Positions 529 through 4,151 of a stretch of 64,000 nucleotides of DNA are shown piece after piece. The notes below the pieces were generated by a model, which saw only the letters and a list, made by a program, of their open reading frames with translations, ran no database searches and was not told where the DNA came from. The stretch lies in contig NZ_JADWMY010000004.1 in NCBI RefSeq assembly GCF_015767275.1, positions 186,001 through 250,000 on the forward strand, in the 5' to 3' direction. Both the position numbers and the translations under genes were made by a program. Numbering within the stretch: the stretch's first letter is position 1; each line of letters begins with the position of its first letter. Origin of the DNA: Herbaspirillum sp. AP02. GTDB taxonomy: Bacteria > Pseudomonadota > Gammaproteobacteria > Burkholderiales > Burkholderiaceae_D.

Positions 529-618
529 GGAGGTTTGGGTGAGTGGTTTAAACCAGCAGTCTTGAAAACTGCCGACGGGGTGACCCGTCCGTGAGTTCGA
601 ATCTCACAGCCTCCGCCA
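529..618 (+). tRNA. tRNA-Ser (anticodon UGA)
   Basis: A 90-base class II tRNA. The acceptor stem GGAGGTT pairs with AGCCTCC (one G-T wobble), followed by discriminator G and an encoded CCA. The anticodon loop reads CTTGAAA, giving anticodon TGA for UCN serine codons. The long variable arm (CCGACGGGGTGACCCGTCC) and the T arm GTGAGTTCGAATCTCAC are typical of tRNA-Ser. Its 3' end borders the AT-rich RT gene, a position often used by integrating elements, but I could not find a second copy of the tRNA 3' end within the next few kilobases. Confidence 0.96.
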
Positions 619-631
619 GAACATCATATAG

Positions 632-660
632 AACGGGCCTTTGCGGCCCGTTTCTTTTTC
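632..660 (+). terminator. Intrinsic terminator of tRNA-Ser
   Basis: Eight-base stem AACGGGCC / GGCCCGTT with loop TTTGC, followed directly by TCTTTTTC. It lies 14 bases after the CCA end and should end tRNA transcription before the RT gene. Confidence 0.85.
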
Positions 661-681
661 TACGTCCAAAATTTACCCGCA

Positions 682-731
682 AATTGTTTTGAGTTTAATT
701 TACTCAAAATGACAACAATTCTTTTAGAATT
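682..731 (+). repeat. Two tandem inverted repeats upstream of the RT gene
   Basis: TTTTGAGT (687-694) and ACTCAAAA (702-709) form a perfect 8-base inverted repeat with a 7-base loop. They are flanked by AATTGTT (682-688) and AACAATT (714-720), which extend the symmetry. AATTC-TTTTA-GAATT follows at 717-731. The stretch lies between the tRNA terminator and the RT start codon. It may be an operator, a leader hairpin or part of a small RNA; sequence alone does not separate these. Confidence 0.5.
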
Positions 732-786
732 GGTCACGTATCCGACATGTTAAGTCGACAAACGCAAAAATAAAAACGGGGGAAAA

Positions 787-3700
787 ATGGTCGTTACGCT
801 GAAACAATTAGCGGTTGCTTACCGTAAAGCAAAGGTAGATCTTTATTACTCATCACATGCTTCGATAGAAGCAATAGCTGCCTACGAGGATGACCTTTCA
901 CGCAATTTGAACGCTCTATTAAAAAAAATTAATAGTGGCGATGATGCATGGATAAAAAAAGAGAGCTTCCTAGGCGACTGGACACTCGCAACTAAGGCAA
1001 TCTCTTGGCCCGAACGAAAAAAAGTCCGCGACGATTTTGGAACCGGGCTGATATTTTCAGATCCTCGAGAGGAGTGGGAATATTCAAAATCATTGCTTGA
1101 AAAAAAAGCAAATTCCCCTACCAACCCAAAAGCAGAGTTTCGAGTGATGGCCCAATGCAGCCTTGACTTCCATGTCTTATCTGCTCTGTGGATTATAAAA
1201 GTTGGTCAATTTCTCGACGCCAAGTTGACTAAATGTGCCTATGGAAATCGGCTTCGAAGAACTCGCGATAACAAAAAATTAAACACGCGTGCGATGGGGT
1301 CGTTTACGCCTTATTTGAAGCCGTTTCGGGACTGGCGAGATAACGGCATCGGTACTATGCATAGAGCGTTAGAGGACAATAAAAAAATTGTGGCCCTTAC
1401 AGCCGATGTCAGTTCTTTCTATCACGAACTAAACCCTGGGTTTCTTTTAAAAAAATCTTTTCTAAAGGGAGTACTAGGGATTGAACTTTCCCCTGACCAG
1501 GAAAAACTGCATGGCCTGTTTATTGGCGCCCTAGAGACTTGGGCAAAAAGAACGCCTCTAAAAAAGGGGCTACCCGTCGGATTACCTGCGTCGGCCGTCG
1601 TCGCAAACGTGGCCTTGATTGAGCTAGATCGCCTGATGGAACAGCAAATCGCCCCTCTATATTACGGACGCTATGTTGATGACATTCTATTGGTTATGGA
1701 GAACGGCGCATCTTTTCAATCAACAGGAGATGTTTGGGAGTGGATATTTGCCAGATCGAATGGAAACCTCTCGTGGTTTGGCAAAAAAGATGACCGGAAA
1801 ATCAAGTTTTCCCCCAAATACCTGCTCGGAAGTGGCACGAGAAAATCTAGCAATATTCATTTTTCTAATTCCAAAAACAAGGTATTTATTCTGTCAGGAG
1901 AATCTGGAAAAGACTTAATCAATGCAATCGCATGCCAAATCCAGGAAAGAGCCAGCGAATGGCGCGCCATGCCCCGCCTTCCACAGTCGGCGCAACAAGT
2001 TGGCACCGATCTGTTGGCAGCTACTCAGAGTAATGGGGAGGCTGCAGATAACTTGCGAAAAACGGACGTATTGACGATGCGTCGAGCGGGATTCGCAATA
2101 AAATTACGAGACTTTGAAGCGTACGAGCGAGATCTTGTTCCAAGTGCCTGGCGAGACCACCGCCGTGCATTTTTCCGTGCTTTTACACAGCATGTATTGG
2201 TACTGCCCCACTTTTTTGATCTGGCGATTTACTTGCCACGAGTCATTCGTCTCGCAACTGCATGCGAAGATTTCAAAGAGCTTAGGACAATTATTAATTC
2301 TGTACAAAAAATCACAAAAGAAGTTGCAGACAATTGTTCTATTGAGATTAAGGCAGCAACTCCGCCTTATAAAATCCAACGAGAAGAACTAATTACGCGT
2401 TGGAAGAAACAACTTTTTTCGTCGGTATGCGAAAGTGTCGCCGCGGCGTTCCCACCCATGTTGACACGCGCGGGAGCATCTCGCTGGAAAAAGTATATGT
2501 CGGAATACACGCCTGAGTTCGATCTTGACCTGCTTCCGGCTTGGCCTGCTTCTAAGAAGGAATTTCAAACGCGACAAGCTCGCCTCTTCTCCTTCGACTT
2601 AGCCCATATGCCGTTCCGATTTATGGGCCTACCAGCGGAGATGGTGTCTCAGCGAGGAGTTCCAAAAAGGGGAACGATAAAGAACTTCACCAACGCATCA
2701 AAACTGCTTCCGCCTGATATCTATCGTGGGAACTCAGCGATTGCGCGGACGCTTGGATTCAGCCACTTGCCGCACGGTTTAGCGTTTACTACACGGCCAT
2801 TCAGCTTAGCGGAGCTGTTCATCTTGGACATTGACGTGTTTAACAGAGATGTTCAGTCTGAACTAGCAGATATCGTGAGAGCTCAAAGAGGGTTCGATCT
2901 AAATGAAAAAATGCCGGTTATGAGTAGAAATAAAATTCTTGAGATTCCCGATGGGAAATCTGAAGATAAGTACCGTGTAGCAGTTTCAAGTTGGAAGACC
3001 AGAATAGACAGCTGGGTCGCAGCCGTAAGAAAAGTAGAGGATCCAGATATTGAGAGATATGGCCGTTTAAATCATCTTCTCGATCATGTTATATCCAAGC
3101 CCCTCGGCTGCCGCTATCTGATACTCCCTGAGTTAGCACTTCCCTCCAGCTGGTTTTTCCGCATCGCCCGAAAACTCCATGGACGCGGTATTTCTCTGAT
3201 CGCCGGAGTTGAGTATCTGCACGCAGGAAAACATAAAGTTCGCAATCAAGTTTGGGCAGCGCTATCGCATGACGGCCTTGGCTTTCCCTCTACGTTAATT
3301 TATAGGCAAGATAAACAACGTCCCGCTTTGCACGAGGAACTAGAACTCCAGAGACTTGCGGGAGTTAAGATGAAACCAGATAAAAAATGGGATAACCCGC
3401 CAATAATTCAGCATGGCGACTTCCGTTTTTCTCTTTTGATCTGCAGTGAACTCACAAATATCAGTTATCGGGCGGCGCTTCGAGGAAACGTCGATGCAAT
3501 ATTCGTTCCCGAATGGAATCAGGATACTGAAAGTTTTAATGCGTTAGTTGAATCGGCCGCGCTTGATGTCCACGCTTATGTAATTCAATGCAATGATCGT
3601 CAATATGGAGATAGTCGCATTCGTGCGCCCTACAAAAATAGTTGGGAACGGGACATCCTACGGGTGAAAGGTGGGATTGCTGATTATTGTGTAATGGGAG

Positions 3701-3819
3701 AAATCGACATAAAAACACTTAGGGAATTTCAAAGCGGATATCGGTCTCCACCAACTCCTTTTAAACCTGTTCCCGACGGCTTTAGGATAGCAGATGAGCG
3801 AAAAATACTTCCCACCTGA
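787..3819 (+). CDS. Reverse transcriptase-nitrilase fusion protein (DRT1/UG-type defence RT)
   Basis: The 1010-residue product has an N-terminal reverse transcriptase domain: motif A TADVSSFYHEL with Asp207, motif B GLPVGLPASAVVAN near residue 265, and the catalytic YVDD box at 296-299. The last quarter is a nitrilase-superfamily (CN hydrolase) domain: LILPELALP with Glu782, YRQDK with Lys843 and LLICSEL with Cys886, giving a plausible Glu-Lys-Cys triad. RT plus C-terminal nitrilase is the architecture of the defence-associated UG1/UG5 RTs (DRT type 1), shown to protect E. coli from phages. No maturase, retron or group II intron features are visible. A strong ribosome site (GGGGGA) precedes ATG 787. 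Base composition is far more AT-rich than the flanks and codon use differs, pointing to horizontal acquisition beside tRNA-Ser. It has no neighbour in an operon. Subgroup assignment (UG1 versus UG5) is uncertain. Confidence 0.9.
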   Translation: MVVTLKQLAVAYRKAKVDLYYSSHASIEAIAAYEDDLSRNLNALLKKINSGDDAWIKKESFLGDWTLATKAISWPERKKVRDDFGTGLIFSDPREEWEYSKSLLEKKANSPTNPKAEFRVMAQCSLDFHVLSALWIIKVGQFLDAKLTKCAYGNRLRRTRDNKKLNTRAMGSFTPYLKPFRDWRDNGIGTMHRALEDNKKIVALTADVSSFYHELNPGFLLKKSFLKGVLGIELSPDQEKLHGLFIGALETWAKRTPLKKGLPVGLPASAVVANVALIELDRLMEQQIAPLYYGRYVDDILLVMENGASFQSTGDVWEWIFARSNGNLSWFGKKDDRKIKFSPKYLLGSGTRKSSNIHFSNSKNKVFILSGESGKDLINAIACQIQERASEWRAMPRLPQSAQQVGTDLLAATQSNGEAADNLRKTDVLTMRRAGFAIKLRDFEAYERDLVPSAWRDHRRAFFRAFTQHVLVLPHFFDLAIYLPRVIRLATACEDFKELRTIINSVQKITKEVADNCSIEIKAATPPYKIQREELITRWKKQLFSSVCESVAAAFPPMLTRAGASRWKKYMSEYTPEFDLDLLPAWPASKKEFQTRQARLFSFDLAHMPFRFMGLPAEMVSQRGVPKRGTIKNFTNASKLLPPDIYRGNSAIARTLGFSHLPHGLAFTTRPFSLAELFILDIDVFNRDVQSELADIVRAQRGFDLNEKMPVMSRNKILEIPDGKSEDKYRVAVSSWKTRIDSWVAAVRKVEDPDIERYGRLNHLLDHVISKPLGCRYLILPELALPSSWFFRIARKLHGRGISLIAGVEYLHAGKHKVRNQVWAALSHDGLGFPSTLIYRQDKQRPALHEELELQRLAGVKMKPDKKWDNPPIIQHGDFRFSLLICSELTNISYRAALRGNVDAIFVPEWNQDTESFNALVESAALDVHAYVIQCNDRQYGDSRIRAPYKNSWERDILRVKGGIADYCVMGEIDIKTLREFQSGYRSPPTPFKPVPDGFRIADERKILPT

Positions 3820-4012
3820 GCTTTCGCGCGCACACTTCGTCACCCTTCTTTTATGCCTCACGGGTGTACGTCGGAGTTAGCCTCTCGCAACCTGCACCAA
3901 GGTTGCCGCTCACTCTTCATCGCTACGCCCTAGCGAGCACAGTAACGAAAAGCCACTCGTCGAACATTATGGCGGGTGGCTGAATGCCAGGAGGAATGCA
4001 GGCGAGAATCAG
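3820..4012. other. Intergenic stretch after the RT gene with a weak hairpin
   Basis: No credible gene. GCAACCT (3887-3893) and AGGTTGC (3900-3906) form a 7-base stem with a 6-base loop but no T-run follows, so it is a poor intrinsic terminator. Base composition here is intermediate between the AT-rich RT gene and the GC-rich flank, so the right border of the acquired segment probably lies in this stretch. Confidence 0.4.
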
Positions 4013-4079
4013 CAACAACAACAACAACAACAACAACAACAACAACAACAACAACAACAACAATAACAATAACAACAAT
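4013..4079. repeat. Trinucleotide microsatellite (CAA)17 plus interrupted copies
   Basis: Seventeen uninterrupted CAA units run from 4013 to 4063, followed by TAACAATAACAACAAT. Read as protein it would only give poly-Thr or poly-Val, so it is not coding. It sits between the RT gene and the stop of the convergent lpdA gene. Such tracts are prone to slipped-strand length change. Confidence 0.95.
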
Positions 4080-4151
4080 CGCTACGGAGCCTTCAGTTAG
4101 CAACTGCCTGAAATACGGGAAAGCGCCGGCGGCTAAAGCCATCTCGTCCGA

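Follow-up and report, generated by a model that had tools for sequence, protein, structure and literature searches.

A UG5-type reverse transcriptase-nitrilase gene beside tRNA-Ser in Herbaspirillum sp. AP02, a probable single-gene anti-phage protein resembling DRT1

Background

Fusion of a reverse transcriptase (RT) to a nitrilase has been noted in two RT families, unknown groups 1 and 5 (UG1 and UG5; PMC8934634), and a UG5 RT-nitrilase of P4-like satellites, encoded with a transmembrane partner (1TM), has published anti-phage activity, tested in Escherichia coli (PMC9122126). The UG1 protein DRT1 is reported to need both RT activity and nitrilase activity; to contain an alpha-helical repeat domain besides the RT and nitrilase domains; to synthesise DNA independently of RNA, as does DRT5; and to defend without Drt1b. 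Its priming residue was mapped to S402, the substitution S402A abolishes immunity, and K1219A and A1223F reduce defence to the level of a tail deletion (PMC13275509). Here we analyse a gene of 1010 codons, with an ATG start and uninterrupted by stops (list of open reading frames (ORFs) and translation), that encodes a UG5-type RT-nitrilase in Herbaspirillum sp. AP02, within a 64,000-nucleotide stretch (contig NZ_JADWMY010000004.1, positions 186,001 to 250,000 of the forward strand) referred to below as the window. We consider it probable, at roughly 60%, that this is a single-gene UG5-type anti-phage RT that works like DRT1.

Family assignment and conserved residues

The gene is real rather than a chance reading frame, because the protein matches a PADLOC model over its full length (1042 bits), yields a confident AlphaFold2 model (70 rows; mean predicted local distance difference test 90.2, predicted template modelling score 0.91), and differs from its ortholog in a second Herbaspirillum genome (G027, compared with the window's genome, G000) by few nonsynonymous changes relative to synonymous ones (dN 0.065 versus dS 0.90; dN/dS ~0.07), indicating strong purifying selection. 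The model in question, RT_UG5-nitrilase, matched residues 3-1009 at 1042.5 bits; the second-best, another UG5-nitrilase model, reached 153.6 bits in the nitrilase part, and the Drt1a model scored 84.7 bits, so that the best match is not to the Drt1a family. Pfam matched the RT domain (2.8e-9) and gave no CN_hydrolase or nitrilase match in the protein, and all NCBIfam matches fell far under cutoff. The closest solved structure by sequence is DRT1 (Protein Data Bank 9yfd; 1.5e-8, within the nitrilase), and comparison of the UG5-nitrilase profile with DRT1 gives probabilities of 99.7% for the nitrilase and 98.9% for the RT. The top Foldseek matches comprise amidases of the nitrilase superfamily as well as DRT9, DRT2, DRT4, UG15, AbiA, AbiK and Abi-P2; VIA-align, in a comparison confined to residues 725-1000, places residues 724-997 on an amidase (Z 23.8, root-mean-square deviation 3.0, 238 residues). 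The DRT1 structure was not among the 50 matches listed in either fold search (structure library to April 2026), from which no inference is drawn.

The protein is thus a UG5-type RT fused to a nitrilase. The first-pass annotation, made from the letters alone, had recognised a UG-type RT-nitrilase architecture with an intact YVDD at residues 296-299 and a Glu782-Lys843-Cys886 triad; hidden Markov model and fold searches agree on both domains, and the alignment below on every one of these positions. It had treated the interval between RT and nitrilase as blank, which does not hold: AlphaFold2 predicts the interval confidently as mainly helical, as in DRT1.

Conservation was assessed in a 78-row alignment comprising the window protein, proteins from 72 of 80 loci (the best 80 of 473 relatives, from several phyla), the viral-contig proteins L173 and L174, L090 from genome G012, and the plasmid proteins L007 and L009; the frameshifted or truncated L105, L128, L143, L151, L166 (which runs off its contig start), L168, L169 and L170 were omitted. 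The residues D207, Y296, D298, D299, K363, S390, E782, K843, E850, C886, K993 and P996 are invariant in all 78 rows, and S390 is the sole invariant serine, threonine or tyrosine of the window protein within residues 300-760. Position 415 is a serine in 32 of the 78.

Comparison with DRT1

A DRT1-like mode of action is supported by the full-length UG5 match, by the invariance of seven catalytic residues (78/78) and by the profile matches to DRT1. Further support comes from two regions in which DRT1 mutants lose defence. S390 lies 27 residues past K363 in every row, and the equivalent lysine lies 27 residues before the S402-aligned serine in all five DRT1 relatives aligned (a set without L261 of Leptospira, which has a nitrilase match only, and without partial Drt1a matches). 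In the global profile alignment the tail K993-x-x-P996-D-G998 falls on the DRT1 tail, with K993 on the tail lysine (K1219A in DRT1) and an aspartate of the window protein at the position of the DRT1 alanine (A1223F).

By analogy with DRT1, from which self-priming, DNA adducts, assembly, the lid and the abortive outcome may all be carried over, the RT domain would add a short untemplated DNA chain onto its own S390, and the chain would drive the nitrilase domains to assemble. The C-terminal tail (KPVPDGF) would close over the nitrilase pocket of a neighbouring molecule and hold the nitrilase dormant, until a phage replication function released it; the freed nitrilase would then harm the cell, and the infection would abort. 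The proposal is further supported by the published activity of a UG5 RT-nitrilase with 1TM, by the occurrence of bacteriophage exclusion (BREX) or type I restriction-modification (RM) genes near 34 of the 80 relatives, and by the low dN/dS.

Several observations weigh against such a transfer. The tested UG5 system has a transmembrane partner that the window gene lacks, and the authors of the DRT1 study describe S402 as lacking conservation among the remaining class 3 DRTs (PMC13275509). Y482 and T669 are near-invariant too (77/78 each). In 9yfd itself the lysine and serine are 29 residues apart, owing to a two-residue insertion; the post-RT segment alone aligns the two families at 6.8% probability, that is, it is not alignable; the spacing from YVDD to the lysine is 53-64 in one family versus 41-50 in the other, and that from the serine to the next conserved aspartate 37 versus 51-52; and the placement of K1219 depends on the overall alignment offset. 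Coincidence, at the few-per-cent level, is a plausible source of the agreement in lysine-serine spacing.

Genomic context of relatives

At least 20 of the 80 loci carry BREX genes and at least 14 carry type I RM genes, and 46 have neither in the fetched flanks; since these extend up to 6 kb and many contigs end sooner, the counts are lower bounds. PADLOC, run on cluster representatives, identified PglX, BrxC, PglZ and BrxL, and the restriction, methylation and specificity subunits of type I systems. Operon structure is weak in two of the RM cases (L139, on the other strand; L169, a 115-residue piece). In a sample of 398 genomes from the phylum, PglX was found in 16 (E<=1e-60) and UG5-nitrilase in five, the window's genome included among the five. 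The 20 BREX loci among 80 are far above the rate at which a random 15-kb stretch would contain PglX, which we estimate at less than 1 in 1000, a rough figure in that one phylum is set against several. On a quick tree, which carried long-branch warnings, the BREX label of 18 rows requires nine changes, a number below that of every one of 500 shuffles (mean 16.6); the contexts therefore cluster on the tree yet have switched repeatedly.

In 14 of the 80 loci, which are BREX loci, a split pglX flanks the UG5-nitrilase gene on both sides (L097, L098, L101, L108, L109, L112, L116, L119, L120, L123, L124, L125, L132 and L170, the last with the UG5 gene reduced to a 442-residue remnant). Numbered on the 1217-residue PglX of L128, the upstream part stops at residue 589-635 and the downstream part begins at 635-644. 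The downstream part overlaps the UG5 gene by 1-4 bases in 10 of the 14; at the upstream junction there is an overlap of 4 in five, and spacers of 122-2006 bp separate the other nine. Domain borders published for other PglX proteins lie near the split point (jaws 1-660 and 661-1205; recognition domain from 662). Interrupted pglX as such has been published, and no description of an RT inside pglX was found in the open-licence literature searched. Genome G337 of the 398-genome sample also has a split pglX containing UG5, which is not independent of L112. Between the halves of the split pglX of G157 (L293:2945-9969), three proteins are encoded: the AriA-like and AriB members of a PARIS-like pair (2.9e-20 and 1.1e-18, respectively) and one further protein.

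The split-pglX seat of these relatives points to a possible connection of BREX with an abortive RT. A broader proposal, which we regard as doubtful, is that UG5 RT-nitrilases serve as portable modules of last resort. They would travel with DNA-modification defences, in many cases seated where a split pglX hinges between its methyltransferase and recognition halves, and once the first line was blocked they would abort infection by means of a self-primed DNA switch of the DRT1 kind; the Herbaspirillum gene would be a free-standing version. No PglX was detected in the window's genome at E<=1e-10.

Relatives also occur on mobile DNA. Among the 80 matches listed on viral contigs, two span nearly the whole protein, two cover most of it in pieces and 76 an RT stretch only; among 50,697 phage records there was no match. 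On one viral contig (L176:5647-8512) the relative is split into adjacent ORFs, an RT of 646 residues and a nitrilase of 307. A 62%-identical relative, annotated as hypothetical, is found near genes of a His-Xaa-Ser system on a conjugative Sinorhizobium meliloti plasmid (L007:6001-9018).

The tRNA-Ser site and the leader region

The gene begins 168 bp past the end of tRNA-Ser(TGA) (Table 1). Its G+C content is 46% (42-48% when taken over 500 bases at a time), compared with 65% ahead of the tRNA and 62-70% across positions 4251-12000, and its third-position G+C is 0.42 versus 0.75 for 33 further long ORFs of the window, pooled. Downstream, some 330 bp with a CAA repeat precede an opposite-strand ORF of 475 residues, which by eye we take to be dihydrolipoamide dehydrogenase. 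With the tRNA upstream and this ORF downstream, inspection of the window ORFs revealed no adjoining partner gene. The imperfect CAA microsatellite (window 4013-4078) separates the gene from its neighbour; a 70-residue ORF on the minus strand that contains a run of valines (3930-4142), considered as a small partner, is this repeat in reverse reading.

Within the genus, 2 of 34 genomes (G000 and G027) have a close full-length copy, each after tRNA-Ser; that of G027 is 88% identical and likewise stands alone behind this tRNA, and G012 has a 37-38% identical relative located elsewhere. Comparison of the tRNA-Ser 3' side in 19 other regions, one of them too short for use, showed different DNA at this variable site. 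G011, G033 and G017 encode DUF6538 proteins there, one of which also matches an integrase below threshold; G012 has a KAP NTPase, G004 a transposase, and G013 a NACHT match that likewise falls below threshold. A 460-residue ORF of L070 (G004) was dropped as a candidate KAP ATPase when Pfam returned nothing for it. In G013, a clear repeat of the tRNA-Ser end lies about 3.4 kb downstream, around ORFs of 47-49% G+C (L073:514-3918), and the stretch it bounds is likely a small integrated element. A search of the window for a second copy of the tRNA end (<=3 edits) found nothing better than weak matches, elsewhere in the window, to its last 15 bases, and no integrase was seen beside the RT-nitrilase gene among the window ORFs.

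Divergence of the RT-nitrilase gene between G000 and G027 equals that of the neighbouring SDR gene (dN 0.052, dS 0.85), so that long residence under purifying selection appears to fit better than recent arrival, which is not supported. Both copies remain at 46% G+C despite a dS of about 0.9, a composition without drift towards that of the host. The first-pass annotation had described a phage-defence island with no partner gene, of odd composition and directly after a tRNA. The setting is as described, a defence role remains likely and the tRNA site is indeed variable, but the term island does not suit a single gene with no adjoining integrase, no second tRNA end and a divergence suggestive of an old resident. 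Presence at this locus in all close relatives, which the annotation had named as a refuting finding, is not what the genus shows, since a close copy occurs in 2 of 34 genomes.

The leader of the gene is common, among the relatives searched, to the window gene and its L093 ortholog only, and no conserved leader was found in relatives beyond that ortholog. Folding of the whole leader, tRNA terminator included, gives z = -3.7; without the terminator, z is -1.9 for the window and -5.6 for L093. The two-sequence consensus has 24 pairs, one of them changed on both sides, and in window 675-782 the ribosome-binding site may pair with an upstream CCC in these two sequences. An inverted repeat within the leader (Table 1) is possibly an operator or an RNA hairpin. 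Rfam reported no family except tRNA in window 1-8000. Two sequences are too few for a leader structure to be claimed, and with the leader present in one near ortholog only, a family-wide leader RNA is not supported.

Table 1. Positions of the gene, its domains and motifs, and neighbouring features in the window
Feature	Position	Strand	Support
tRNA-Ser(TGA); variable genus site on its 3' side	529..618	+	tRNA call, Rfam, genus comparison
Terminator-like hairpin belonging to tRNA gene	631..653	+	folding
Inverted repeat, arms TTTTGAGT/ACTCAAAA, spacer 7	686..710	.	core identical in L093 ortholog; two sequences only
GGGGG, probable ribosome-binding site	778..782	+	read from sequence
UG5 RT-nitrilase gene, 1010 residues	787..3819	+	ORF call, PADLOC match
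D207, RT motif A aspartate	1405..1407	+	78/78
YVDD 296-299, RT catalytic motif	1672..1683	+	Y296, D298, D299 78/78; V297 76/78
K363, invariant lysine, anchor of spacing test	1873..1875	+	78/78
S390, predicted DNA-priming serine	1954..1956	+	78/78; 27 residues past K363 in 78/78
Mainly helical linker, ~residues 428-720	2068..2946	+	AlphaFold2 model
Nitrilase domain, ~residues 725-1000	2959..3786	+	PADLOC, profile match, VIA-align
E782, nitrilase catalytic glutamate	3130..3132	+	78/78
K843, nitrilase catalytic lysine	3313..3315	+	78/78
E850, second nitrilase glutamate	3334..3336	+	78/78
C886, nitrilase nucleophile	3442..3444	+	78/78; pairs with DRT1 C1116
K993-P-V-P-D-G-F999, predicted C-terminal lid motif	3763..3783	+	K993, P996 78/78; P994 77; G998 76; aligned to DRT1 tail

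Alternative explanations

The protein might be anti-phage and yet copy an RNA template, whether its own, the host's or the phage's, as do DRT2 and retrons, with the product controlling the nitrilase. The foldable leader with its paired ribosome-binding site would suit this arrangement, and the matches by fold or sequence include structures of DRT2 and of retrons; the restriction of the leader to one ortholog, the Rfam result and the RNA-independent synthesis by DRT1 and DRT5 nevertheless make it unlikely. Less likely again is that a partner is required, as may be so for UG5 RT-nitrilase + 1TM systems, and that the window gene is an incomplete or cooperating remnant: many relatives do stand in operons, and the 1TM partner family adjoins the relative in L174 (Drt1b/RTasTM, 1.6e-58), but the finding that the gene stands equally alone behind this tRNA in another species, under strong purifying selection, argues for a gene sufficient in itself, as does the ability of DRT1 to defend without Drt1b.

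A host gene specific to the lineage, serving the cell in nitrogen or amide metabolism or in DNA repair, would account for an ortholog divergence the same as that of the SDR gene. It is very improbable, given that just 2 of the 34 genus genomes have a close copy, that relatives lie near BREX and RM genes, on plasmids and on viral contigs, and that anti-phage activity is known in the family (PMC9122126). DRT1-like action by a self-sufficient anti-phage protein remains our preferred explanation.

Comparison with known systems

The window gene belongs to a known but little-studied family, since both the UG1/UG5 fusion to nitrilase (PMC8934634) and the activity of a UG5 RT-nitrilase (PMC9122126) are in print. 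The predictions for S390 and K993 in UG5, and the seat of the family inside split pglX, seem to be new within the open-licence literature searched.

Compared with integrase-borne tRNA islands, the window gene has neither an adjoining integrase nor a duplicated tRNA 3' end, although its site is variable. DRT2, DRT9 and retron-type RTs differ in the conserved noncoding RNA by the gene, for which no counterpart was found here apart from the leader shared with the L093 ortholog. The published UG5 RT-nitrilase + 1TM (PMC9122126) is likewise a UG5 RT with a C-terminal nitrilase, and differs in its transmembrane partner; its nearest counterpart here is L174, a viral-contig relative of 31% identity with an RTasTM gene. 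The UG5-nitrilases of BREX loci (for example L098, L101 and L124) are 63-65% identical to the window protein and have the same motifs, but they are embedded with a DNA-modification system, often inside a split pglX, whereas the window copy is free-standing.

DRT1 (UG1; 9yfd, PMC13275509) belongs to a separate RT family, as the bit scores show, and is longer (1229 versus 1010 residues), with a post-RT segment that cannot be aligned. It nevertheless has the same single-polypeptide order of RT, helical region and nitrilase, the same catalytic residues, a related tail and, in all five relatives, a serine at the same lysine spacing. Through single-residue predictions at S390, C886 and K993, the mechanism recently published for DRT1 would extend to a second family of RT-nitrilases.

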